Of a stretch of 38,612 bases of DNA, positions 9,242 to 36,450 are shown one piece after another. This DNA comes from Bacteroidales bacterium (lineage in GTDB: Bacteria; Bacteroidota; Bacteroidia; Bacteroidales; UBA7960). Within the stretch, counting starts at the first letter, position 1. Every line of letters begins with the position of its first letter. The translations under genes were made by a program, and so were the position numbers. Below the pieces are notes generated by a model, which worked only from the letters and a program-made list of their open reading frames with translations, did not search any database and was not told where the DNA came from. The DNA is taken from positions 1 to 38,612 of the forward strand of contig PWRF01000237.1 in the NCBI GenBank assembly GCA_003556325.1. Reading direction: 5' to 3'.

Positions 9242-10795
9242 ATGACAAACACAAAAATTCTTTGGGCAGATGATGAAATAGATCTTTTAAAACCCCACAT
9301 ACTTTTCCTCAGGGAAAAAGGATACGATGTAACTACAACAAACAGCGGTTCAGAGGCCCTCGACCTCATCGAAGACAACCACTTCGATATTATATTTCTT
9401 GACGAAAACATGCCCGGTCTTACCGGCGTAGAAACCCTGGAGAGAATCAAAGGAAAATATCCCGGGCTGCCTGTCGTCATGATCACCAAGAGCGAGGAGG
9501 AGGCCATCATGAACGAGGCAATAGGCAGCAACATATCCGACTATCTTATTAAGCCGGTTAACCCTAACCAGATCCTCCTCGCCCTGAAAAAGAACCTGGA
9601 AAACCGCAAGCTGGTCAGCGAGAAGACCTCTATGACCTATCAGCAGCAGTTCCGCCAGATCGGGATGAGCTTGTCGCCTTCGCTTGATTTTGATGAATGG
9701 GAGGATATATACAAGAAGCTGATATATTGGGAATTGCAGCTCGGAAAGTCTCAAGACGAGAGCCTCCGTGAAATATTCCTGCAGCAAAAAGCAGAAGCGA
9801 ACACGGTTTTTTGCCGTTTTATCCGTGAAAACTACAGAGATTGGCTTAAGGGTGTCTCAGAGAGCAAGCCTGTACTGTCGCACACAGCTTTTCGCGAAAA
9901 ATGCCTCCCCAGGATCAAAGAAGAAAAGAGCGTCTTCCTGATCCTGATCGACAACCTCCGCTACGACCAGTGGAAAATGATTCAACCCAAGCTGGAAGAA
10001 TACTACAGGGTCATAACCGAAGATGTGTACTGCAGCATCCTGCCAACAGCCACTCAATATGCACGCAACTCGTTCTTTGCCGGACTCTTGCCAGGAGAGA
10101 TCCAGAAGCGCTATCCCGGCTACTGGACCCGTGAGTCGGATGAAGGCACCAGGAATCAATATGAAGCAGAGTTGCTGGAAGAACAGATAAAAAGATTCGG
10201 AGGAGGAATCCCGTTTCATTATCACAAGATCCTGAATCTCACTGCAGGCAAAAAGCTTTCAGCAACCCTCAGTGACTATCTGAACAAGAAGCTTAATGTG
10301 CTGGTCTATAACTTTGTAGATATGTTGTCGCATTCGCGCACCGAGATGGAAGTCATTAAAGAGCTGGCAGAAACAGAAGCAGCCTACCGGTCGCTGACCC
10401 AAAGCTGGTTTGATCACTCACCGCTTCTTGAGATCATCCGCCAGCTTGCCGAAAAACAGATCCCCGTCATATTGACCACTGACCACGGATCGATCCGGGT
10501 AAATCATCCCACGAAAGTGGTGGGAGACAAAAACACAAACACCAACCTGCGTTACAAAACAGGCAAAAACCTGCAATACGACCCGGACGAAGTGTTTGAA
10601 GTGAAGAATCCGGCTGATGCCTTTCTGCCAAAGGACAATGTGAGTGCAAACTTTATCTTTGCACAGGAAAACAACTTTTTTGCGTATCCCAACAATTATA
10701 ATTATTACGTGAATTACTACAGGAACACATTTCAGCATGGCGGGGTATCCCTTGAAGAGATGATGATCCCCATGATATACCTTCAACCAAGATAA
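9242..10795 (+). CDS. porX: PorX: response regulator with PglZ phosphatase-like domain
   Basis: A 517-aa protein, the length of Porphyromonas PorX. Residues 1-120 form a receiver domain (acidic D10/D11, phospho-acceptor D54 in FLDENMPG, MITKS, and Lys in YLIKPV). A helical linker is followed by a PglZ domain of the alkaline phosphatase superfamily, with VFLILIDNLRYDQW, the candidate nucleophile region LPTATQYARNS, and the metal site TTDHGSIRV. PorX acts with the sensor kinase PorY and sigma factor SigP to control type IX secretion genes, and has been reported to cleave oligonucleotide substrates. No porY or sigP is in the window. The start at 9242 was chosen from the -7 box and from family length. 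Confidence 0.95.
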   Translation: MTNTKILWADDEIDLLKPHILFLREKGYDVTTTNSGSEALDLIEDNHFDIIFLDENMPGLTGVETLERIKGKYPGLPVVMITKSEEEAIMNEAIGSNISDYLIKPVNPNQILLALKKNLENRKLVSEKTSMTYQQQFRQIGMSLSPSLDFDEWEDIYKKLIYWELQLGKSQDESLREIFLQQKAEANTVFCRFIRENYRDWLKGVSESKPVLSHTAFREKCLPRIKEEKSVFLILIDNLRYDQWKMIQPKLEEYYRVITEDVYCSILPTATQYARNSFFAGLLPGEIQKRYPGYWTRESDEGTRNQYEAELLEEQIKRFGGGIPFHYHKILNLTAGKKLSATLSDYLNKKLNVLVYNFVDMLSHSRTEMEVIKELAETEAAYRSLTQSWFDHSPLLEIIRQLAEKQIPVILTTDHGSIRVNHPTKVVGDKNTNTNLRYKTGKNLQYDPDEVFEVKNPADAFLPKDNVSANFIFAQENNFFAYPNNYNYYVNYYRNTFQHGGVSLEEMMIPMIYLQPR

Positions 10796-10866
10796 CAACG
10801 GGTAGGGTCATGTGAAAACACCACCCCGCGGATCCGTTCCCATCCGTTACCATTGTGTTATCAAAC

Positions 10867-10961
10867 AAAGCCAATTGCTAAAAGCCAACAGCTAAAAGCA
10901 GCTCTGGAGACAAAACACAAACATCATATAACCACGAATTTTCAAAATTTTATAACACATG
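10867..10961 (+). repeat. Orphan copy of the shared leader block, first of a direct pair
   Basis: This stretch resembles 11095-11185 over about 95 nt: AAAGCCAAT, GCTAAAAGCCAACAGC, GCAG(C/T)TCTG, AAAACA(C/T)AAACA and a terminal ATG occur in the same order. The second copy ends at the tsaE start codon. This copy ends at an ATG (10959) that opens a 33-codon frame with no recognisable product. It looks like a duplicated leader whose gene is absent or was never present. Confidence 0.75.
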
Positions 10962-10968
10962 AACCGGT

Positions 10969-11037
10969 CACCTGCGAGCCCGGCGAAGCCAAACGTCCAT
11001 GACAGGATTTTTGACACACTGGAGGATGGTTATTGTC
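10969..11037 (+). repeat. GC-rich module of the shared leader (tsaE copy)
   Basis: It contains GAGCCCGGCGAAGCCAAAC, a CAGGATTTTTGACACAC segment and GGAGGATGGTTATTG. The same order is found upstream of the ENPP gene (22801-22869, minus strand) and the lipoprotein gene (34374-34445, minus strand), always pointing toward the downstream gene. Confidence 0.85.
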
Positions 11038-11060
11038 AGGGGGGTGTTCAGACTAAGTAG

Positions 11061-11126
11061 GCTTTTGGCTATTAGCTATTGGCTATTGGCAAGAAAGCCA
11101 ATAGCTAAAAGCCAACAGCCAAAAGC
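11061..11126 (+). repeat. Long inverted repeat built from heptamers, upstream of tsaE
   Basis: Two 30-nt arms (11061-11090 and 11097-11126) match as inverted repeats at 26 of 30 positions around a 6-nt loop (AAGAAA). Each arm is made of about four TATTGGC-like heptamers. As RNA it would form a long hairpin in the tsaE leader. No T-run follows, so it is not a standard terminator. Confidence 0.85.
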
Positions 11127-11182
11127 AGTTCTGCTGAAAACATAAACACCAGACAACCAATTGGGTGAAAAATTATTAACAG
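11127..11182 (+). promoter_or_regulatory. Start-proximal shared leader block of tsaE
   Basis: AAAACATAAACACC, ACAACCAATT, GTGAAAAA and TTAACAG then ATG correspond position by position with the 46-50 nt before rnfD and the ENPP gene. It is A-rich, as expected for Bacteroidota ribosome loading, but the similarity goes beyond composition. Confidence 0.7.
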
Positions 11183-11602
11183 ATGAAAGATAATCAGGTA
11201 TACACGATCCGGCAGGCTGATGAACTGGATCAGCTTGCCGGTATATTATTAAAGGCATACCCCGACACCCGTATTTTTGCTTTTTACGGTCCTATGGGTG
11301 TGGGAAAGACAACTTTTATCAAACACCTCTGTCGTTCCCTGGGGGTTTCCGACCTGGTAAGCAGTCCCAGCTTTCCCATAGTAAACCATTACGTTGCTGA
11401 CGAAGGAGATGACATATATCATTTTGATTTTTACAGGATCGAAAACCACGAAGAGGTCTATGACCTGGGTTATGAGGATTATTTTTATTCAGGTAATTAT
11501 TGTTTTATTGAATGGCCGGAAAAGATAGAACATGTAATGCCTGACAATGCCGTCCCGGTGTATATGAATATGAAAAATGAACACCGGATCATACGTTTTT
11601 AA
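11183..11602 (+). CDS. tsaE: tRNA threonylcarbamoyladenosine biosynthesis ATPase TsaE
   Basis: A 139-aa cytosolic P-loop ATPase needed with TsaB, TsaC and TsaD for t6A37 on ANN-decoding tRNAs. Walker A is GPMGVGKTT (residues 36-44). The family segments SSPSFPIVNHY, HFDFYRIE and FIEWPEKIE are all present and the length is typical. It lies 387 nt after porX, a common pairing in Bacteroidota, but here the gap holds a repeat-rich leader that probably gives tsaE its own expression signals. Confidence 0.96.
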   Translation: MKDNQVYTIRQADELDQLAGILLKAYPDTRIFAFYGPMGVGKTTFIKHLCRSLGVSDLVSSPSFPIVNHYVADEGDDIYHFDFYRIENHEEVYDLGYEDYFYSGNYCFIEWPEKIEHVMPDNAVPVYMNMKNEHRIIRF

Positions 11603-13316: not shown

Positions 13317-13389
13317 TGACTTGGCTGGGGCTCGAACCCAGGACCCCATCCTTAAAAGGGACGTGCTCTACCAGCTGAGCTACCAAGTC
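13317..13389 (-). tRNA. tRNA-Lys, anticodon TTT
   Basis: A 73-nt cloverleaf on the minus strand. The acceptor arms GACTTGG/CCAAGTC pair perfectly, the D-arm reads GCTCAGCTGGTAGAGC, the anticodon stem is CGTCC/GGATG around loop CTTTTAA, and the T-arm is CTGGG-TTCGAGC-CCCAG. The 3' CCA is not encoded. A terminator follows directly. Confidence 0.98.
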
Positions 13390-14740: not shown

Positions 14741-14803
14741 TACATTTTACTTATCTTTACTACCAATTAAAGGAAGCGAATGTGATCCTCTTTCCTGAAC
14801 AGG

Positions 14804-14849
14804 CTAAGGTTAAGGTTAAGATTAAGGTTAAGGTTTAGGTTAAGGTTTA
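14804..14849 (+). repeat. Hexamer tandem array (TTAAGG with variants)
   Basis: About 7.5 degenerate TTAAGG units, including GATTAA and TTTAGG variants. A short second run lies at 14897-14917. The same hexamer occurs in the opposite orientation at 23562-23609. It sits in the gap between the divergent GNAT and SDR genes, upstream of both. Confidence 0.9.
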
Positions 14850-15907: not shown

Positions 15908-15996
15908 CAGGAAGGGGTTATTGCGGACCGGTAAAACAGCTTAAACACAGGCAACTCAATACATTGATCATAATCTGCTAACGAAAACACAAACAC

Positions 15997-16458
15997 ATGA
16001 AGAAAGTTACGGAAATTAAACCTTTGCAGGGGTTTGGGCCCCTGAAGTTTGGTTCGGGTCAGAAAGAAGTTGAAAAAGTTCTTGGACCTCCCCAGGAGAC
16101 TGAAACCATTGATGTGGAAGGTGAGATCCACGAGGTTGAAGTATGGAGCTACTGGGAACAAGGGCATGCGGTTTATTTTGAGAAAGAACTGGATAACGTG
16201 TGCACAAACTTTGAAACGGACAATCTTGAGGCAACCATTTTTGGCAAGCGGGTCTTCGAATTGAACCAGGATCTGATCATTGAGCTGATGAGAAAGAATG
16301 GCTATGAGCAATTTGAAATTGAAGATGACGAAGATCTTGAAGAGCGGATCCTTTTTTTTAACGATGCGCATTTACAGGTTGTCTTTGAGAAAGAAAAGCC
16401 TGTGCTGGTTAGTTGGGCTGTTGCGATGGATGATGAAGAAAATATTCAGTGGCCATAA
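15997..16458 (+). CDS. Uncharacterised acidic 153-aa protein
   Basis: I do not recognise a named family. The protein is soluble, acidic, without a signal peptide or membrane segment, and begins with GFGPLKFGSGQKEVEKVLGPP, a pattern seen in several small alpha/beta proteins where a Gly-rich strand is followed by a helix. The middle has alternating strands (EVEVWSYWEQGHAVYFEK) and the C-terminus another strand pair with DDEDLEERILFF. It lies 15 nt before manA and is probably cotranscribed, so a link to sugar phosphate metabolism is possible. The promoter box at 15876 precedes it. Confidence 0.75.
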   Translation: MKKVTEIKPLQGFGPLKFGSGQKEVEKVLGPPQETETIDVEGEIHEVEVWSYWEQGHAVYFEKELDNVCTNFETDNLEATIFGKRVFELNQDLIIELMRKNGYEQFEIEDDEDLEERILFFNDAHLQVVFEKEKPVLVSWAVAMDDEENIQWP

Positions 16459-21464: not shown

Positions 21465-22697
21465 CTACTTGAGCATGCCTTGCACCCGTTCCAGTTTGCC
21501 GTCAACGGGAGCAGGATCCAGGCCTAGGATCTCTGCGATCAGCGGATACAGGTCAACCAGTTCAAAAGGATCGTGCACATGTCCTTTCCTGAAAGCAGGC
21601 CCCATGGCATAAAAAATGGTGTGCATGTCTTTCTTCGCGTTGTCCCAGCCATGTCCCCCACCGGTATAAAAGCGTTCTTCGGGCTCTCCCCATCCGATAT
21701 TGTATGTGGAGTCTGCCAGCACAACCAGATCCAGCGCGCGTGGATTTTCTCCAAAATTCAGACGCTCCGGGAGTTCCCCTGATCGCCATATATATAGGTT
21801 CTCAACGTCTTTCATGATGTTGTAGATACTGTCTTTCATTCCCTCAGCCGGACGCCAGAACATAACGGGGTTATGTCCGAATGAGATATCCAGCCAATCA
21901 CGGTCAACATACTGCCCGACATCCACATAGCGCTCCTGGCTTCTTTCGGTCATACCGTGGTCAGAGGTAACGATCAGGTTCACGCGATCGGCGACAGGCA
22001 GTTCCCTGATGCGCTCTATAAGAACTCCCACGAGGCTGTCTAATTCGGTAACCAGCTCATCGATTTCTGTACTTTCCGGCCCTGTTCGGTGGCCCTGGGA
22101 ATCAGGCTCATGGAAGTAGAAGGTGATCAGCTGAGGCCGCTTTTCGATGGGCAATTGCAGCCAGTAAGCCACGGTGTCGATCCGGTCAGCAAAAGGATGT
22201 CCCGTGTCGTATGTCTTCCAGTATGTGGGTTGCACACCTTTTACCGGGGCTTCTGATCCCACCCAGAAATAAGATGCGGAAGTCATGCCCTGTTTTTCTG
22301 CGGTCACCCATATGGGCTCACCTCCGTAAAACCTTCCGTCTTCCACGGCATCCCGGTCACGCATTCTGTAGGTCATGTCCAGTTCAGGACAGTAAAAATT
22401 GTTGTTTACGATGCCATGGTTGTCCGGATACAGCCCCGTAGCCATGGTATAGTGGTTGGGAAAGGTGTTGCTGGGGAATGCCGGTATAACGTATTCGGTG
22501 CTCACACCATTGGTGGCAATATAATCCAGGTTTGGGGTATGTGTGCGTTCTGCATAGTCCCAGCGGAATCCATCCATCGAAAGCATGATCAGGTATTGCC
22601 TCTCGTCCTGCTGGCTGCCTTGCAGGCTGCAACCGCTCATAGCCAGGATCAGCAACACGGACATCCACATCGTTGTTTTAAAAATCTTTTTTTTCAT
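21465..22697 (-). CDS. ENPP-type phosphodiesterase/nucleotide pyrophosphatase lipoprotein
   Basis: A 410-aa member of the alkaline phosphatase superfamily close to ectonucleotide pyrophosphatase/phosphodiesterases. The signal peptide ends in AMSGC, making C23 a likely lipidation site, so the enzyme is exported. Two-metal site residues are visible: D42 in LSMDGFRWDY, nucleophile T78 in FPSNTFPNHYTMATG, the Asp and His of HEPDSQGH, TSDHGM, and the His of GGGHGWDN. It should cleave phosphodiester or pyrophosphate bonds. Its leader is the best preserved example of the shared modular repeat, starting right before the ATG. Confidence 0.9.
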   Translation of the reverse strand: MKKKIFKTTMWMSVLLILAMSGCSLQGSQQDERQYLIMLSMDGFRWDYAERTHTPNLDYIATNGVSTEYVIPAFPSNTFPNHYTMATGLYPDNHGIVNNNFYCPELDMTYRMRDRDAVEDGRFYGGEPIWVTAEKQGMTSASYFWVGSEAPVKGVQPTYWKTYDTGHPFADRIDTVAYWLQLPIEKRPQLITFYFHEPDSQGHRTGPESTEIDELVTELDSLVGVLIERIRELPVADRVNLIVTSDHGMTERSQERYVDVGQYVDRDWLDISFGHNPVMFWRPAEGMKDSIYNIMKDVENLYIWRSGELPERLNFGENPRALDLVVLADSTYNIGWGEPEERFYTGGGHGWDNAKKDMHTIFYAMGPAFRKGHVHDPFELVDLYPLIAEILGLDPAPVDGKLERVQGMLK

Positions 22698-22869
22698 GGG
22701 TTTATATTTTTTCAGCTAATTGTTATTGAGGTGTTTATGTTCTTGTCAAAAGTTCAGGAGTTGTGTTGCAACTGTCGAAATGTCGAAATGTCGAAACGTC
22801 CCAATAATTATCCTCCTGTGTGTCAAAAATCCTGAAATGGGGGTTTGGCTTCGCCGGGCCCGCAAGTGC
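22698..22869 (-). repeat. Composite shared leader of the ENPP gene
   Basis: Read toward the gene it contains the GC-rich module (GCGGGCCCGGCGAAGCC), TTTTTGACACAC, ATTATTGGGAC, three GACATTTC-type octamers (22774-22800), GTTGCAAC (22765-22772), then CTTTTGACAAGAACATAAA and the A-rich block up to the ATG. From GTTGCAAC onward 62 nt differ from the rnfD leader at only three positions. Confidence 0.92.
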
Positions 22870-22873
22870 TCGG

Positions 22874-23060: not shown

Positions 23061-23513
23061 ATGGAAAGAAGACACGCGCAGCAGATATGTCATCCCGGTG
23101 TGGTTGAGCGGATAGAGGGCAGTGAATTGCTCGTAAAGATTGAGTCACAGGCAGCCTGTGGAAAATGTCAGGCGAAGAGTTATTGCGGCATGGGTGAATC
23201 CGCAGAAAAGGCTATCGGTGTTGATCTTCGTGATAATTCTTCCGGTTGGCGCCCTCAGGATTTTTATCCCGGTCAGCCTGTCGAGGTAATTCTCTCGCGT
23301 GCCCTCGGTTACAGGGCCCTTTTCATGGGTTACCTGCTTCCATTCCTGATTCTTGTGGCAAGCCTTATCCTTATGTTTTATACAACCGGCAATGAGGGGC
23401 TGTCTGCCTTGGTGGCCGTATTGTTGATGGCGCCTTATTATGGCCTGCTTTATCGTTACCGGCACAAACTCCGGCAAACCTTCCGTTTTTCTGTCAGGCC
23501 CATACGGGAATGA
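23061..23513 (+). CDS. rseC: RseC/SoxR-reducing-system family membrane protein
   Basis: A 150-aa protein with an N-terminal Cys-containing domain and two transmembrane helices (about residues 86-106 and 110-130). The Cys pattern CGKCQAKSYCGMG and the opening PGVVERIEGSELLVKIESQAAC are the hallmarks of the RseC family, which accompanies Rnf genes and assists maturation or SoxR reduction in gammaproteobacteria. It is the first gene before rnfB, but 477 nt of repeats and a separate promoter box intervene. The ATG at 23061 is chosen because family members start a few residues before the GVV motif. Confidence 0.9.
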   Translation: MERRHAQQICHPGVVERIEGSELLVKIESQAACGKCQAKSYCGMGESAEKAIGVDLRDNSSGWRPQDFYPGQPVEVILSRALGYRALFMGYLLPFLILVASLILMFYTTGNEGLSALVAVLLMAPYYGLLYRYRHKLRQTFRFSVRPIRE

Positions 23514-23515
23514 CG

Positions 23516-23550
23516 AAAGGACAAAAGGACAAAAGGACAAAAGGACAAAA
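23516..23550 (+). repeat. Octamer tandem array (AAAAGGAC), about 4.4 copies
   Basis: Nearly perfect AAAAGGAC units start just after the rseC stop and run into AATGTCGAAG, a piece like the octamer array of the shared leaders. Confidence 0.92.
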
Positions 23551-23561
23551 TGTCGAAGTAT

Positions 23562-23609
23562 CCTTAACCTTAATCTTAATCTTAACCTTAGCCTTAACCT
23601 TAGCCTTTA
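23562..23609 (+). repeat. Hexamer tandem array (CTTAAC/CTTAAT/CTTAGC), about 8 copies
   Basis: Reverse-orientation relative of the TTAAGG array at 14804-14849. It directly follows the octamer array; the joint ATCCTTAACCT also occurs at the outer end of the rnfD leader. Confidence 0.92.
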
Positions 23610-24887: not shown

Positions 24888-26225
24888 ATGCGAGCATTGA
24901 AAACTTTTACCATGGGGGGTGTTCACCCTCCGGAGAACAAATTAGCGGAAAAACAGGCCATTGAGCGGCTTGAACCGCCCAAAAGCGTTGCCATACCTTT
25001 GGCGCAGCACCTGGGTGTGCCTGCAGAGCCCGTCGTATCCAGGGGAGACCAGGTGAAAACCGGTCAGCTGATAGCTAAAGGGGAAGCCTTTATCTCTGCC
25101 CATATCCATTCATCTGTTTCCGGAAAGGTTAAAAAGATCGATGCGGTGACTGATGCCTCCGGGTATCGTAAAAAGGCCATCATTATCGATGTGGAGGGAG
25201 ATGAGTGGGAAGAGGGTATTGACAGGGATGAAGGCTTGCAGAAGCAATGCGACCTGGATGCCAAAGAAATACTTGAGAAGATCCATAATGCCGGGATTGT
25301 TGGCCTGGGTGGCGCCACCTTCCCTTCCCACGTAAAACTCAATGTGCCCAGAGGGAAAAAGGCCGAATACCTGATCATAAACGGTGTTGAGTGCGAGCCT
25401 TGTCTTACGGCCGACCACCGCCTGATGCTCGAGAAAGGCGAAGAGATCCTGGTAGGCGTACAACTGCAGATGAAAGCGCTGGGTGTGAAAAAAGCCATTG
25501 TCGGAATTGAGCAAAACAAGCCGGATGCCATACAACATTTCACCAAACTTGCAAAGGATTACGAGGGAATCAGTGTGCAGGCCCTTGAGGTAAAATACCC
25601 GCAGGGTGCAGAAAAACAGCTGATCAAGGCATTGATCAACAGGGAAGTGCCCTCCGGAAAGCTGCCCATAGAGGTGGGTTGTGTGGTGCACAATGTCGGA
25701 ACTGCATTTGCTGTCTACGAAGCTGTACAGAAAAATAAGCCACTCATTGACCGCGTGGTAACGGTGTCGGGCAGCTCAGTAAAAAAGCCGTCCAATTTTA
25801 TGGTACGCATCGGCACACCTGTTTCTGCACTGATAGAAGCTGCGGGAGGCTTGCCGGAAGACACCGGTAAGGTGATCAACGGGGGGCCGATGATGGGCAA
25901 AGCCTTAAATGACCTGGAAGTACCTGTTACAAAAGGGACTTCCGGTATCCTGATCTTTACCGAAAATGAAGCTTCCAGGCCTGTGGAACAAAACTGCATC
26001 CGGTGTGCCAGGTGTGTGACCATCTGCCCGATGGGGCTGGAACCTTATTTGCTTGCCCCGCTTGCCGAAAAGCAACGCCTGGAAGAGTGCGAGGATGAAC
26101 GTATCATGGATTGCATGGAATGCGGTTCATGCCTGTATATTTGTCCGTCGGCCAAGCCGCTGCTGGATCATATACGGGTTGGGAAAACACGTGTTGGCAA
26201 GATGATACGGGAACGAAGCGCCTAA
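24888..26225 (+). CDS. rnfC: Rnf complex NADH/FMN-binding subunit RnfC
   Basis: A 445-aa peripheral subunit related to NuoF, the site of NAD reduction. It begins with the RnfC signature FTMGGVHPPENK, has a barrel-sandwich domain (ISAHIHSSVSGKVKKI), a Gly-rich NADH/FMN region (GIVGLGGATFPSHVK, IINGVECEPCLTADHRLM), and two [4Fe-4S] motifs (CIRCARCVTICP and CMECGSCLYICP). It is 27 nt after rnfB. The following gap of 135 nt to rnfD is the only long one in the rnfBCDGEA set and holds a copy of the shared leader repeat. Confidence 0.97.
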   Translation: MRALKTFTMGGVHPPENKLAEKQAIERLEPPKSVAIPLAQHLGVPAEPVVSRGDQVKTGQLIAKGEAFISAHIHSSVSGKVKKIDAVTDASGYRKKAIIIDVEGDEWEEGIDRDEGLQKQCDLDAKEILEKIHNAGIVGLGGATFPSHVKLNVPRGKKAEYLIINGVECEPCLTADHRLMLEKGEEILVGVQLQMKALGVKKAIVGIEQNKPDAIQHFTKLAKDYEGISVQALEVKYPQGAEKQLIKALINREVPSGKLPIEVGCVVHNVGTAFAVYEAVQKNKPLIDRVVTVSGSSVKKPSNFMVRIGTPVSALIEAAGGLPEDTGKVINGGPMMGKALNDLEVPVTKGTSGILIFTENEASRPVEQNCIRCARCVTICPMGLEPYLLAPLAEKQRLEECEDERIMDCMECGSCLYICPSAKPLLDHIRVGKTRVGKMIRERSA

Positions 26226-26250
26226 ACGGTAAGAGGTTTTGAGGTTAAGG

Positions 26251-26360
26251 ATATTATGACATTTCGACATTTCGACATTTTGACAGTTGCAACACAACCC
26301 CTGAACTTTTGACAAGAACATAAATACCTCAATAACAATTAGTTGAACAAAGATAAACAG
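26251..26360 (+). repeat. Shared leader inserted between rnfC and rnfD
   Basis: It contains three GACATTTC-type octamers (26258-26281), CAGTTGCAACACAACCCC, TTTTGACAAGAACATAAA and the A-rich block that ends at the rnfD ATG at 26361. The GC-rich module and heptamers are missing; the outer end joins a short GGTTAAGGATAT piece related to the hexamer arrays. Confidence 0.92.
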
Positions 26361-27359
26361 ATGAAAGTATTAACCGTATCGGGATCACCCCATTACCATG
26401 CAAAGGAATCGGTAAGCAGTCTGATGTATGGCGTGATTTTCTCGCTGATACCCGCCATGCTGGTGTCGTTTTACTTTTTTGGACTTCCGGCCATACTGAT
26501 TACGCTGACAGCGGTTGTTTCCTGCATGTTCTTTGAATTTATCATTCAGAAGTACCTGATTAAAGGGCCCATTACCATATTTGACGGCTCTGCCATCATC
26601 ACCGGTGTGCTGCTGGCTTTTAATGTGCCGGCCAATTTGCCACTGGGTTTGATGGTGATTGGCTCAGCTGTTGCGATCGGAATGGGCAAGATGACATTTG
26701 GAGGACTGGGCAAAAACCCTTTTAATCCGGCTTTGGTTGGAAGGGTGTTTCTTATGATCTCTTTCCCGGTGCAGATGACAATGTATCCCGAGCCCTCTGC
26801 TTTTACAACACAACTCACAGATGTTCTTACCGGACCCACCCCCCTTACTGCGCTAAAAGACGGAGTTACACAGGGCGTGCCGGTATCCGAGATAATGGCT
26901 CAACTGCCTGACTACGGCCGGCTGCTTCTGGGCAATATGGGGGGATCAGTCGGTGAGGTTTCTGCTATCGCCATCCTTTTAGGAGGAATATACATGTTGA
27001 TAAAAAAGATCATCAGCTGGCATATCCCTGTGGCTTTCATCGGGTCTGCAGCTCTTTTCGCTGCGCTTTTCTGGCTGATCAATCCGGAAGTATATCCGGA
27101 TCCTGTATTCCAGATACTTACCGGTGGCCTGATGCTGGGTGCCATCTATATGGCAACGGATTATACCACCAGCCCAATGGCGCCCTGGGGTATGATCATC
27201 TTTGGTGTGGGGTGCGGACTGCTGACTATGATCATACGGTTCTTCGGAGCTTACCCGGAAGGGGTGGCATTTTCCATTTTGATTATGAACGCATTCGTAC
27301 CACTTATTAATCGTGGGCTCAAACCCAAAAGATTCGGGGAGGAGGTAAACAATGGCTAA
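26361..27359 (+). CDS. rnfD: Rnf complex membrane subunit RnfD
   Basis: A 332-aa integral membrane protein with about nine helices. The opening KVLTVSGSPHYHAKES and the segments GKNPFNPALVGRVFL and ATDYTTSPMAPWG are RnfD/NqrB landmarks. The covalent FMN site of the family (usually S/T-GATPL) reads TGPTPL, with the acceptor Thr kept. An in-frame TTG at 26343 would lengthen the protein, but the shared leader aligns so that ATG 26361 sits exactly where the other genes start. The 3' end overlaps rnfG by 8 nt. Confidence 0.95.
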   Translation: MKVLTVSGSPHYHAKESVSSLMYGVIFSLIPAMLVSFYFFGLPAILITLTAVVSCMFFEFIIQKYLIKGPITIFDGSAIITGVLLAFNVPANLPLGLMVIGSAVAIGMGKMTFGGLGKNPFNPALVGRVFLMISFPVQMTMYPEPSAFTTQLTDVLTGPTPLTALKDGVTQGVPVSEIMAQLPDYGRLLLGNMGGSVGEVSAIAILLGGIYMLIKKIISWHIPVAFIGSAALFAALFWLINPEVYPDPVFQILTGGLMLGAIYMATDYTTSPMAPWGMIIFGVGCGLLTMIIRFFGAYPEGVAFSILIMNAFVPLINRGLKPKRFGEEVNNG

Positions 27360-29467: not shown

Positions 29468-30841
29468 TCATGGGCAGGAACGCCGCAATAGCTCACCTGG
29501 CGGGATATCGTGAAAGTGCCCATCCCGGAAGGCAATCCGCCCGCCCTTGATCACGATCTCTGCTTTTCCGGTGGTTTTCATGCCCTCATAGATGTTAAAA
29601 TCACTGTGCTGAAAATGCGTCCTGGCAGAGATCACGCCTGTTTTGCGGGGATCCCAGATCACCAGGTCGGCATCGCTGCCTTCAGCAACAACCCCCTTGC
29701 GTGGATACAGGCCAAATATTCTGGCCGCATTGGTTGCGCTCAGATTCACAAAATCACTGCCACTCAGGTGGCCTTTTTGCACGCCAAACGTGTATAACAG
29801 GGCCATCCTGTGCTCAACGCCACCTGCGCCATTGGCGATCTTGCGGAAATCTTCCAGCCCCTGTTTCTTTTGTGACATAAAAAACGGGCAATGGTCGGTG
29901 GCAACGACCTGCAAGGTTCCATCCTCAAGTCCCCCCATCAGCGCCTCACGGTCCTTTTCCTTACGCAACGGAGGGCTTAGCACATAGGGTGCAGCCTCTG
30001 AAAACGGTGCCTCATAAACACTGTCCTCTAAAAGGAGATGATGTATACAGGCTTCGCCAAAAACTTCCTGGCCATCCTGTTGTGCCTCGCGAATATGTTT
30101 CACCGAGCTGGCAGCAGACACATGCACGACATATAATTTGCATCCGGTTTTTTTTGCTGTCTCAATGGCTGTTTTTACCGCATCGCTTTCGGTGTGGGGT
30201 GGCCTGCTTTTCGGATGCGCCGCCGGGCTTGTTTGTCCGCTTTCTGCCAATTGCCGGCGCAAGCGATCTACCTCTTCGCCGGTTTCGGCATGCACGGTAA
30301 CCAAAGCATTTCTTTTGGCTGCGTTTTGCATGACCCGCTCCATGACAGGGACATCAATTCCGATCGCATCTTTGTATGCCATATATATCTTAAATGAGGT
30401 CATCCCCTCTTTGATAACGGCATGCATCTCTTCGGCAGTGGTATCGCGCCATTCCACAGGGCTCACGTGGAAGCTGTAATCCGTACGGCACGAAGCTGCT
30501 TCTTTTTGTCTCGACTTCAGGGCGCCGGTCAGCGACTCTCCTCTTTTGGGTGTCACAAAATCGATCAGGGTGGTCGTGCCCCCGGCCAGGGCAGCTTTGC
30601 TGCCGCTGAAGAAATCGTCGGAGGAGTATCCTGCTCCGGTGGGCAAATGCATGTGCACGTGGGGGTCGATGCCGCCTGGTATGACTAACCGCTGACTGGC
30701 GTCAATCACCCGATCCGGCTTGATACGCTCCGCGTTGATCTCTTTTGCGATCTGCTGAATCAATCCGTCGCCAATGAGTATATCCCCTTGCATTTCGCCG
30801 GAGGCATTCACTATGGTGCCGTTTTTAATGAGTATCTTCAT
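29468..30841 (-). CDS. Dihydropyrimidinase/D-hydantoinase
   Basis: A 457-aa cyclic amidohydrolase of the dihydropyrimidinase family, hydrolysing dihydropyrimidines or hydantoins. The binuclear metal site is visible: HVHMHLPTG, the carboxylated Lys in TSFKIYMAY, His in VTVHAETG and VVHVSAASS, and Asp in VATDHCPFF. The C-terminal beta domain SDADLVIWDPRKT is complete and the length is normal. Without other pyrimidine genes nearby the natural substrate is uncertain. Its leader carries the shared A-rich block and a heptamer array. Confidence 0.92.
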   Translation of the reverse strand: MKILIKNGTIVNASGEMQGDILIGDGLIQQIAKEINAERIKPDRVIDASQRLVIPGGIDPHVHMHLPTGAGYSSDDFFSGSKAALAGGTTTLIDFVTPKRGESLTGALKSRQKEAASCRTDYSFHVSPVEWRDTTAEEMHAVIKEGMTSFKIYMAYKDAIGIDVPVMERVMQNAAKRNALVTVHAETGEEVDRLRRQLAESGQTSPAAHPKSRPPHTESDAVKTAIETAKKTGCKLYVVHVSAASSVKHIREAQQDGQEVFGEACIHHLLLEDSVYEAPFSEAAPYVLSPPLRKEKDREALMGGLEDGTLQVVATDHCPFFMSQKKQGLEDFRKIANGAGGVEHRMALLYTFGVQKGHLSGSDFVNLSATNAARIFGLYPRKGVVAEGSDADLVIWDPRKTGVISARTHFQHSDFNIYEGMKTTGKAEIVIKGGRIAFRDGHFHDIPPGELLRRSCP

Positions 30842-30928
30842 GTTTTGTTTGTTGGTAACTAGTTGTTTTTGAAGCGCTTATGTTTTTGGAAAATGCCAAC
30901 AGCCAACAGCCAACAGCCAACAGCTATT
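30842..30928 (-). repeat. Shared leader with heptamer array, hydantoinase copy
   Basis: Toward the gene: four TGTTGGC heptamers (30894-30921 on the plus strand as GCCAACA), CCAAAAACATAAGCG and an A-rich block ending at the ATG. The octamer and GC-rich modules are missing. The similarity to the lipoprotein leader (GGTAACT, TTATGTTTTTG on the plus strand) is clear. A near-consensus TATCTTTA box lies at 30930-30937. Confidence 0.8.
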
Positions 30929-33614: not shown

Positions 33615-34262
33615 TCAGAGGGGGATATCAAGCTTGTCAATGGGTTTTTTGTCGTCATGCCAGAAATCCACTTCGGAGAGTCTGATATCGGAAATGTAAC
33701 GAATCTTTTCTGCAGTATGGACGAGGTCTTTTTCCCTGTGGTATTCATGCTGTTCAATATAGGCTTTTTCTGGAGACATCACCCACAATACCGGCTTGTA
33801 ACCTCTTTCGTTCTCCACATGTCCGGCCACCACAATATTGCCGTCCGGATCAAAGTCAGCCTCTTCAAAAATGCAGGGCGTGCCACAAAATAACATGCGT
33901 GATCGTTTCCCTTCTTCAAACCGTATCAGGCCCACTTCCATGTCGGGCTCCCGTCCTGCAGAGTAAAGAGTGCCGTCATCCTGTATTTCGATGGCCAGAT
34001 GATAACTGTCAAGGTCAATGGCTTTTACAGAGTCCGCTGCATAAACATAAAAATCCGAAAAAACATCATCTTCCTTCCCCTCGTAGTCATAGGTTACGTG
34101 ATACTGCCTTTCAAAACGATGGGTTTTTTCAAACCCGCCGTATTCCAGGCCATAATATTCAAGCCACATGCCAATCCGCTCGCCGGGCCAGTCGTTTCTG
34201 TCGGCCGCCGGCTTGCAGGAGTGCAGCATGAATAAAAGAAGGGATGCAAGAATGATTTTCAT
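33615..34262 (-). CDS. Uncharacterised lipoprotein
   Basis: A 215-aa protein with a short signal peptide and lipobox LHSC (Cys16), so it should be exported and lipidated. The mature part is rich in charged residues and short beta segments (YHVTYDYEGKEDDVFSDFY, DLDSYHLAIEIQDDGTLYSAG). I do not recognise a family or catalytic motif. Two Cys lie close together at FCGTPC. It is downstream of a serine hydrolase gene in the same direction, but the 247-nt gap holds a full copy of the shared leader, so it is probably expressed separately. Confidence 0.8.
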   Translation of the reverse strand: MKIILASLLLFMLHSCKPAADRNDWPGERIGMWLEYYGLEYGGFEKTHRFERQYHVTYDYEGKEDDVFSDFYVYAADSVKAIDLDSYHLAIEIQDDGTLYSAGREPDMEVGLIRFEEGKRSRMLFCGTPCIFEEADFDPDGNIVVAGHVENERGYKPVLWVMSPEKAYIEQHEYHREKDLVHTAEKIRYISDIRLSEVDFWHDDKKPIDKLDIPL

Positions 34263-34445
34263 GTGTTTATTTGCTGGTAACTGTTTGTTGTTGACTTATT
34301 TATGTTTTTGACAAAAGTTTAAGGGGTTGTGTTGCAACTGTCAAAACGTCGAAATGTCGAAATGTCGAAGCGTCCCAATAATCATACTCCTGTGTGTCAA
34401 AAAGCCCTGTTCATGGGCGTTGGCTTCGCCGGGCCCGCAAGTGCC
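34263..34445 (-). repeat. Composite shared leader of the lipoprotein gene
   Basis: Toward the gene: the GC-rich module with CGGGCCCGGCGAAGCC, TTTTTGACACAC, ATTATTGGGAC, four octamers (34340-34374; the ENPP and rnfD copies have three), GTTGCAACACAACCCC, CTTTTGTCAAAAACATAAA and an A-rich block ending at the ATG. The heptamer array is absent. Nothing else is apparent between 34446 and 34509. Confidence 0.9.
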
Positions 34446-34509
34446 AGGTTCACCTGTTTGAGGGCAATCTTAACCCTCAATTAATGTGCCGGACTTGCTG
34501 GTTTCAGAA

Positions 34510-36450
34510 TCAATACTGCCATCCCAGCATGTTAAAAAACTGCAATTGCCAAATGGCCAGTATATATACCAGGGTGGTCAGGTTATAGAAAATTCTGCTG
34601 AGATTTTTTACCTGGGGTTGTTTCCATACGTAAACGCTGTTGAAGATCATCAGCAGGATAAACGGCAATGCAGCGAGTGGAAAAAACAGGCCTATTTTGA
34701 TTCCTGTGGGGATGCCGAAAATGATCTCTTCGCCCCCGGCTGCTGAAAACACCAACACGTAGAAGAGTGTCAGAAAGAGCGTGGCGATCCATGCTGCGGT
34801 TCTTGAAAAAAGCGGCAGGGGCTTGCGGGTCCTTGGCTTTTTGTCGTAAAGCCGGCGGGCAAAATAGAGCCACGGCCATACTATGAGGATGTAGAGGATG
34901 CAGATCAGCGTCATCAATACAATAAAAATATGTAGCCCCTGGTTGTATGTCCACCCGGGACGTTCTCCCGCCATTATGGGGAAGTCGCTCAGATATAAAC
35001 GCTGTGCCTTTTCTCCGGGTTCACGGTCAAATCCCACAAATGTATTGGTTTCTGCAATCCAGAAAGTAGTACTGTCAATGGCTGGCATCAGATAACCCTC
35101 GCCTGTAAAATCTTTGTAGAGCAGCTTGTTGTCCTTAACGCTGATATCCATTCGGCTCATCAGCCCGATGATTTTTAAAATATCAGAATGTGGCCTTCGG
35201 TTCACCAGGTAGGTCCCGGCAAAGCCCTCAAGGTAATCCCGGTCAAGATCGATCAGCGGCGGTGGCGGGTCCTCTGCAGGATAATATCTTTTGATGAAAT
35301 GTTTCATGACTTTACTGTATGCAAGTCCGGCATCATTGCCGCTGAACGAAACGAAAAGACCCGTGTTGTGGTCCGGGAGCAGAGCCAGCTGAGAGTGGAA
35401 AAGAAAGGTGTTCCCGCCATGACCGATCACCTTCACATGTCCCGGACTGGTGTCCATGAAGCCATGAAGTGCCGGGTTCATCCCCGGGGCGTGTGTGAGA
35501 ACGGGGGTTTTCATCTTTGCGACTGAGAGAGAATCCATTATCCGGATAGTATCCCGTTGGCCGTAATTCAGCAGCATGTCCATGAACCTGACCATATCGG
35601 CGGCTGTGGTGCTGGCTCCTCCTGCACCTGTCATAGGTACGATTTCAAATCCCTCTTCACGGAATGCTCCGTCGCTAAAGGAGTAGCCTGTGGCCATCCG
35701 GTTTGCCAGGGGCCCTGGCAAAGGCTGGCTGAAAGATGTAGACTCCATTCCAAGGGGTTCAAGAATATGCTGGTCTGCATAAGTCTCAAAAGGCTGGCCG
35801 GTGACTTTTTCAACCAGGTACTGTGCGAGGCCGCTTCCATAATTGCTATACGCAGCTATTTCAAGCGGGGGTGTCACACGCCTGGGCATATACCTTTTCA
35901 GATACTCTTCCAGCGATGGGATATCATCGTCTTCCCGCATGATTAGCTTCAGCAAGACATCCTCAAAGCCCGGTGTGTGCGAAAGCAGACTGCGCAAGGT
36001 AACAGGTTTTTCAAACCTATCAGGGATCTTAAAAGACTCAAGATACTCGTTTACATCCCTGTCGAGGTCCAGCCGGCCAGCTTCAACCTGCTGAAGAACA
36101 GCAATCCATGTGAATAGTTTGGAAACAGAGCCGATGCGAAAGAGGGTCTGTTGCGGATCTGCCTCCACACTGTCAGCAATATTTGCATATCCGTATCCGC
36201 GCTGAAACAAAAGCGACCCGTCCTGTATGATACTGATCACCGCACCTGCAGCGCGATGTTCATCCATTATGGTATGCATTATGCCGTCCATGTATGCCGC
36301 CAACTCAAAAGTATCCTGCAGCTGCGGGATACCCTTTTCCTGCCTGGTGTAATCATACCCTGCAGCATAAACGCCGGAATATTTCAATATCAGCATTATC
36401 AACAGAACACATATAGCCGGATTCAATAAGTGTTTATAAATAACTCTCAT
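34510..36450 (-). CDS. Serine hydrolase (class C beta-lactamase fold) with C-terminal membrane helices
   Basis: A 646-aa protein. After an N-terminal hydrophobic signal (residues 10-30) comes a beta-lactamase/DD-peptidase-like domain with the S-x-x-K motif S108-V-S-K111 (FRIGSVSKLF), a Y-x-N type motif in AAYSNYGSGLAQYL, and a third motif HGG (VIGHGGNTFLF). Residues about 400-500 form a smaller beta domain. The last 150 residues contain four transmembrane helices. Members of this family cleave cell wall or D-amino peptide substrates or small esters; the substrate is not clear here. The active domain would face the periplasm. Confidence 0.88.
   Translation of the reverse strand: MRVIYKHLLNPAICVLLIMLILKYSGVYAAGYDYTRQEKGIPQLQDTFELAAYMDGIMHTIMDEHRAAGAVISIIQDGSLLFQRGYGYANIADSVEADPQQTLFRIGSVSKLFTWIAVLQQVEAGRLDLDRDVNEYLESFKIPDRFEKPVTLRSLLSHTPGFEDVLLKLIMREDDDIPSLEEYLKRYMPRRVTPPLEIAAYSNYGSGLAQYLVEKVTGQPFETYADQHILEPLGMESTSFSQPLPGPLANRMATGYSFSDGAFREEGFEIVPMTGAGGASTTAADMVRFMDMLLNYGQRDTIRIMDSLSVAKMKTPVLTHAPGMNPALHGFMDTSPGHVKVIGHGGNTFLFHSQLALLPDHNTGLFVSFSGNDAGLAYSKVMKHFIKRYYPAEDPPPPLIDLDRDYLEGFAGTYLVNRRPHSDILKIIGLMSRMDISVKDNKLLYKDFTGEGYLMPAIDSTTFWIAETNTFVGFDREPGEKAQRLYLSDFPIMAGERPGWTYNQGLHIFIVLMTLICILYILIVWPWLYFARRLYDKKPRTRKPLPLFSRTAAWIATLFLTLFYVLVFSAAGGEEIIFGIPTGIKIGLFFPLAALPFILLMIFNSVYVWKQPQVKNLSRIFYNLTTLVYILAIWQLQFFNMLGWQY

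Follow-up and report, generated by a model that had tools for sequence, protein, structure and literature searches.

A start-codon-anchored leader repeat of the rnfC-rnfD gap belongs to a genome-wide family of 5' cassettes in a Bacteroidales bacterium

Correia elements of Neisseria are miniature repeats of roughly 100-150 nt that lie near genes and carry terminal inverted repeats and a TA target; unlike the leader family described here, they are not known to be tied to start codons. The BrickBuilt MITE of Porphyromonas gingivalis resembles this family in its Bacteroidales host, its multi-copy intergenic distribution and its combination of a leader part with an internal tandem repeat, and the available text of its description (PMC4596501) describes 19 copies with small terminal inverted repeats and a 23-nt repeat, lying 49-591 nt away from the nearest coding sequences. 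The arrays of the leader family are instead built of 7-8-mers and not of a 23-nt tandem unit with leader and tail, and the end of the family member that we call leader A abuts the start codon. TAACTGA direct repeats, described in marine Beggiatoaceae and also in five Bacteroidetes (PMC4679880), are similar in forming 7-mer arrays that lie mostly within several nucleotides 5' of the start codons of functionally mixed genes, but they are a bare heptamer, described in the available text without a leader, a hairpin module, nesting or an anchor at ATGAA. REP/RAYT systems share with the family a short hairpin beside a fixed oligonucleotide and a multiplicity of copies; judged from the available text (PMC3733652), the leader family differs from them in having ATGAA and not a GTAG/CGTC tag, a longer unit and an orientation set by gene starts, and a RAYT was not found. 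The closest published elements differ from the leader family in these features, and a literature search, covering mostly papers outside subscription, returned no description of it.

The window, i.e. the whole stretch of DNA analysed (38,612 nt), contains an rnfB-C-D-G-E-A operon whose subunit identities are supported by Pfam. According to the list of open reading frames (ORFs), a gap of 135 nt separates the end of rnfC at 26225 from the rnfD start codon, an ATG at 26361, and the remaining junctions consist of 27 nt (rnfB-C), an 8-nt overlap (rnfD-G), 3 nt (rnfG-E) and 11 nt (rnfE-A). These coordinates agree with the first-pass annotation, which had set the 135-nt gap against junctions of 27 nt or less, or overlapping, in the rest of the operon. 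A shared leader directly 5' of the rnfD start occupies about 105-109 nt of the gap, and the upper value (~109 of 135 nt) bears out the description of the gap as mostly leader. A repeat arm of 115 nt starting at 26252 is 90% complementary to positions 22692-22806, and the gap repeat recurs on the opposite strand both there and at 34314-34366. The features of the window are collected in Table 1.

Table 1. Coordinates of the rnfC-rnfD gap and of the leader family copies in the window.
Feature	Position	Strand	Basis or remark
rnfC	24888..26225	+	Pfam RnfC_N, Complex1_51K, SLBB
rnfD	26361..27359	+	Pfam NQR2_RnfD_RnfE
rnfC-rnfD gap, non-repeat remainder	26226..26251	+	first bases resemble relative G007
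Leader A left part: degenerate 8-mer array, GACATTTC kind	26252..26281	+	
Leader A core with its A-rich right end (ATAAACAG), directly adjoining the start codon of rnfD	26282..26360	+	
ATGAA: rnfD start and cassette anchor	26361..26365	+	
Second copy of leader A, with a hairpin module on its left (left end without ATGAA), 5' of phosphodiesterase gene 21465-22697	22698..22873	-	repeat search, Pfam
Third copy of leader A, with a hairpin module on its left (left end GTGAA), 5' of ORF 33615-34262	34263..34453	-	
Nested units of the leader family, leader B type right end, 5' of tsaE (11183-11602)	10864..11182	+	repeat search, Pfam
Hybrid cassette: 7-mer array and leader-A-like right end, 5' of amidohydrolase gene 29468-30841	30842..30910	-	Pfam for gene

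Other short repeats were also noted in the window. TTAAGG-type hexamer arrays lie at 14801-14845 and 23562-23606 in mutually inverse orientation, a (GGACAAAA)n array at 23513-23552 follows the 3' end of the ORF preceding rnfB, and ACAAACACATGAA at 15989-16001 is a near-match to a cassette end, located at the start of ORF 15997-16458.

The assembly to which the window belongs, hereafter the own genome, comprises 2.81 Mb in 347 contigs and is 86% complete. Comparison of the gap DNA with this assembly returned at least 47 matches among those listed (40 of 174 candidates were scored). When up to 3 mismatches were allowed, a core pattern of 19 nt was found in 82 places versus 1 for the reversed-pattern control, and the repetition of the leader in the own genome is beyond chance. 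The 78 places with no more than 2 mismatches were collected with their flanks as the copy set, and the 4 with 3 mismatches were dropped. Pairwise identity among these copies over about 92 nt showed a median of 0.82, and the right-end motif divided them into subfamilies of 50 and 19 copies plus 9 belonging to neither, with the rnfD copy reading as a member of the larger one. A simple array, recognised by a loose motif, borders the core in 77/78 copies. No match to the leader was returned by plasmid, phage and viral collections, and the exact 21-nt core gave 0 stretches in a species-level genome collection, a search that misses variants such as the copy of the relative G005 and from which the own record was perhaps excluded.

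The occurrence of one sequence common to 78 copies might point to a cis-regulatory RNA, such as a riboswitch or the target of a regulator, defining a regulon. This is very unlikely, as the leaders fold weakly, Rfam covariance models applied to the window at gathering scores matched only a tRNA (13317-13389) and no leader, and the genes 3' of the copies, judged by eye from their first residues, look functionally mixed, with no common function. The presence of the same cassette 5' of dozens of other genes likewise argues against a role specific to rnf, where the first-pass annotation had suggested that the leader could separate the soluble NADH and Fe-S subunits from the membrane subunits, with a change in subunit stoichiometry. 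The insert between rnfC and rnfD looks like a genome-wide repeat that landed there and not like a switch specific for the enzyme.

The relation of the copies to gene starts was then evaluated using uncurated, ORF-based gene calls starting at the first ATG, in stretches of the own genome lying mostly around leader copies plus 20 small contigs. For 57 of the 78 copies the end directly abuts the ATG of an ORF of at least 60 aa (at least 100 aa in 55 of the 57), and for the other 21 it does not. ATGAA forms the start in 54 of those 57 ORFs, versus about 25% of other genes. At the copy boundary as such, ATGAA was present in 68/78 copies, i.e. at 54 ORF starts, at 8 places leading into another unit and at 6 others, and was missing in 10/78. 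Counted by gene, ATGAA starts occurred in 43/47 leader-bearing genes versus 51/207 genes without a leader (p 7e-18, a value that overstates independence as the copies are related). The gene upstream of the 57 lies on the same strand in 39 cases, is divergent in 12 and is absent from the contig in 6. In stretches of G005, a member of the same genus, 118 of the 439 ATGAA sites located at ORF starts or outside ORFs are starts; since the 54/60 of the own genome far exceeds this rate (p about 2e-24, independence being again overstated by the kinship of the copies), the copies do not simply sit at any tolerated ATGAA.

Arrays alone were rejected as marks of ATGAA genes, being non-significant both in the own genome outside leader A (octamers 2/6; a heptamer array 1/1) and in the sample of G042, which belongs to a different genus (octamers 0/2). 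The G005 stretches gave ATGAA in 15/28 cases versus 88/369 for octamer arrays (p 0.0013), 8/19 versus 95/378 for heptamer arrays (p 0.11) and 14/17 versus 89/380 for ATAAACAS ends (p 1e-6), frequencies that do not describe a random sample, as several G005 contigs were chosen for array or end-motif hits.

A complete unit of the family consists of a hairpin module starting with ATGAACCGRGC, a conserved block, a 7-8-mer array of variable make-up and an A-rich end, ATAAACAC or ATAAACAG, in this order. The module found 5' of many leaders begins with ATGAACCGRGCACTTGCGAGC and continues with a short hairpin, the block TTTTTGACACACAGGAGGATGATTATT and an 8-mer array. As the right end of the unit abuts the ATGAA of the gene, this pentanucleotide usually stands at both ends, where it may be either a target-site duplication or the element's own sequence. 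The ends of the leader A unit (ATGAACCGRGC; ATAAACAC/G) are not inverted copies of each other by eye, the computed repeat search having seen only repeats of at least 20 nt. In 455 kb of the own genome 31 left modules were counted, 23 of which begin with ATGAA, many after an A-rich leader end, and 8 of which do not. Units are stacked in the order older right end, ATGAACC of the next unit, new right end, gene. Two further arrangements were recognised: leader B, present in the own genome and in G005, combines a 7-mer array with the same kind of right end, and the short type C, in which 8-mers pass directly into the A-rich end, was found in several G005 upstream regions and three times within 154 kb of G042.

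Two candidate features of the unit were set aside. A conserved structure of the left hairpin lacks support from covariation, its paired columns mixing matched and mismatched forms across copies so that pairing is not cleanly maintained, and a conserved peptide appears unlikely in view of an optional segment that changes the frame.

In other Bacteroidales assemblies, 21 stretches match the left module exactly and 17 of them have an ATGAA left end (9 in B1Sed10_143R1, 6 in CSSed162cmA_327 and 2 in CSSed162cmB_594); CA[C/G]ATGAA occurs in 14 of the 17, and 6 of the 17 show an inverted arrangement. In stretches L199, L200, L202, L207, L210 and L213 an inverted A-rich end is joined to a ATGAACCGAGC module, mostly with TTCAT..ATGAA inverted ends, which looks like a further cassette type. 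The other 4 of the 21 carry a related hairpin with no ATGAA at the left end; in stretches L193, L204, L209 and L212, from other Bacteroidota assemblies, a hairpin of this kind reads CCGAGCTTGCGAGCTCGGCGAAGCC or similar.

A fixed pentanucleotide at most ends, a hairpin near one of them and tandem units are properties that would also be expected of a miniature element of the REP/RAYT or IS200/IS605 type using 5'-TTCAT, which is complementary to ATGAA, as its site of movement. However, Pfam searches of the own assembly (86% complete) gave 0 matches to PF01797 (Y1), PF04986 (Y2), PF02371 (IS110) and PF00078 (reverse transcriptase), and IS200/IS605, IS91, IS110 and reverse transcriptase were rejected as movers on this absence of genes. 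The six Y1 loci of the genus relatives, one in each of six genomes, have none of five element motifs around them, and the tag of the published REP superfamilies (PMC3733652, available text) is missing, leaving a mover of this type unlikely.

Forty relatives were compared with the gap DNA, and at least 9 showed some match, nearly always of 22-43 nt within the array (up to 21 candidates were scored per genome); among the matches listed, only that of G005 was longer than 80 nt, and G007 matched over 62 nt to the right end. The cassette end with its anchor, ATAAACA[C/G]ATGAA, was found in 49 places of the own genome, 39 of G005, 29 of G010, 28 of G007, 27 of G006 and 0 to 15 of each of the remaining 16 members of the genus. 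Elsewhere in the taxonomic family, in genomes of other genera, it occurred in 52 places of G042, 25 of G046, 16 of G023 and 0 to 10 of the remaining 11 genomes, and in order-level outgroups in 0 to 8, the reversed control giving at most 1 per strand in any genome.

The search of 20 genus relatives with RnfD returned 12 readable rnfC-rnfD junctions, 1 junction at a contig edge and 7 genomes with no junction. Leader A was present in 0/12 of the readable junctions, whose gaps measure 193, 70, 49, 92, 122, 35, 95, 120, 38, 123, 57 and 40 nt, and gaps of 18-122 nt, likewise without leader A, were measured at 20 loci of the family outside this genus. The claim that the leader interrupts the operon therefore stands insofar as leader A is lineage-specific at this site, but an open junction is not peculiar to it, the relatives having gaps of 18-193 nt without leader A. 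The gap of G007 shares its first bases with that of the own genome and finishes in a right end of type C. That of G005 combines other repeats with an end resembling type C, and G004 contains a different unit, from ATGAACCGAG to ATAAACAGATGAAT. Lineages thus differ in the cassette that they have at the rnfD start, and some have none there. TTAAGG-like hexamer arrays fill part of the G005 gap.

Orthologous starts in the compared G005 stretches were available for 16 of the 57 leader-bearing genes. Leader A was seen by eye within 170 nt of the start in 0/16, and 14/16 of these starts are ATGAA versus 48/179 G005 genes (p 2e-6); the ortholog start was taken as the ATG nearest the alignment and the background as the first ATG, and conserved MK/MN N-termini could contribute to the difference. 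At one locus the left flank and the left module are common to both genomes and the right halves differ, G005 having leader B where the own genome has leader A. Beside a putative recA gene, two units are stacked in the own genome, compared with a short plain leader in G005. Since the G005 orthologs mostly start with ATGAA in the absence of leader A, and since the loci show this turnover, the comparison suggests that ATGAA was mostly present beforehand and that cassettes would come, stack and exchange. The sole leader A copy seen in the G005 stretches lies in L154 at 9626-9804; the own ortholog of the gene concerned (window 34510-36450) has no leader A and the next own gene has one.

The strongest rival to insertion is exchange without transposition, in which homologous recombination between A-rich start regions and arrays would account for everything. 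It would explain the common left module with a swapped right half as well as the hybrid cassette at 30842-30910, the array beside the core in nearly all copies could serve it, and the four mover families without a match in the own assembly are in its favour. It explains less well the two stacked units versus the short plain leader near the presumed recA, and unrelated genes share a short A-rich end, ATGAA and little else, which would be short for RecA-type exchange. On balance we regard recombination alone as doubtful. Against insertion, on the other side, stands that no base-exact empty site was obtained.

The usual -7 element of Bacteroidetes promoters is TAnnTTTG. This motif was present in 0/78 leaders versus 1.8 expected, a deficit that is not significant alone in copies that are related, and in 36/216 other upstream regions versus 6.8 expected, an enrichment of about 5-fold; these expectations come from shuffles keeping letters only. 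In the 250-nt regions left of the units it occurred in 14/52 cases versus 4.9 expected, and the full -33/-7 pair in 3/52, the shuffles in this case, as in the folding analysis, keeping dinucleotides. Of these 14 matches, that in the left region of rnfD falls within rnfC and is probably coincidental. With TAnnTTTG absent in the leaders and enriched on their left, it is simplest to suppose that promoters remain to the left and that the cassette would form a 5' UTR.

These counts also bear on the possibility that a leader A promoter fires inside the rnf operon, uncoupling rnfDGEA from rnfBC, which appears quite unlikely. TTTTG and AACTTTTG in the leader, at roughly the right spacing, do resemble a weakened -33/-7 pair, and BrickBuilt in P. 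gingivalis is reported, in the available text, with promoter elements (PMC4596501); nevertheless, the -7 motif is enriched left of the units and before other genes and is not found in any leader. The internal promoter that the first-pass annotation had named as one possibility is thus not borne out as far as the usual Bacteroidetes type is concerned.

The mean minimum free energy was -4.8 kcal/mol for the leaders versus -14.4 kcal/mol for the regions before other genes. Mean folding z values of +0.5 and 0.0 respectively attribute the low energy mostly to base composition, and 59/78 leaders and 121/216 other genes fold more weakly than their own shuffles. In F. johnsoniae, low structure and an A at -3 favour initiation, according to the part of the source available; leader A shares the open structure, but its base at -3 is C and not the A favoured in that species. 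Because the leader abuts the start codon and folds weakly, the cassette could affect the translation of rnfD, which retains that part of the earlier proposal, and an enhancing effect is possible at most.

The cassettes are anchored at start codons, nested, devoid of the usual -7 motif and subject to turnover between lineages. The leader is probably a non-autonomous, start-codon-anchored 5'-UTR repeat that has spread by insertion at ATGAA starts, by exchange of cassettes or by both. Units would enter at start sites reading CA[C/G]ATGAA, and loci that already have them would swap right halves by recombination through shared flanks, which are the arrays on the left and, on the right, the A-rich end together with ATGAA. 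In the own lineage, leader A probably took the place of a shorter family member at rnfD, one resembling the cassettes of G005 and G007. The cassette would be tolerated because it provides a translatable, weakly folding 5' UTR.

A more specific version, which we advance tentatively, is integration at the translation start itself. Elements would enter at CA[C/G]ATGAA leaving the coding sequence intact, supply their own 5' UTR and initiation region, stack by nesting and be exchanged between genes, rewiring dozens of leaders without touching promoters or proteins. If this version is true, the recombinase would be one as yet unknown.

The genome-wide, start-codon-anchored leader family is the main finding, and a repeat placed at the start codon in 57 places, differing between sister species and preferring existing ATGAA starts, would be an unusual genomic repeat. 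For studies of Rnf, it is a warning that an unusual operon gap can reflect repeat traffic and not regulation. If insertion is true, the family would offer a natural experiment on the role of the 5' UTR in a phylum whose translation initiation does not use Shine-Dalgarno sequences, and would point to some enzyme or process capable of recognising gene starts.
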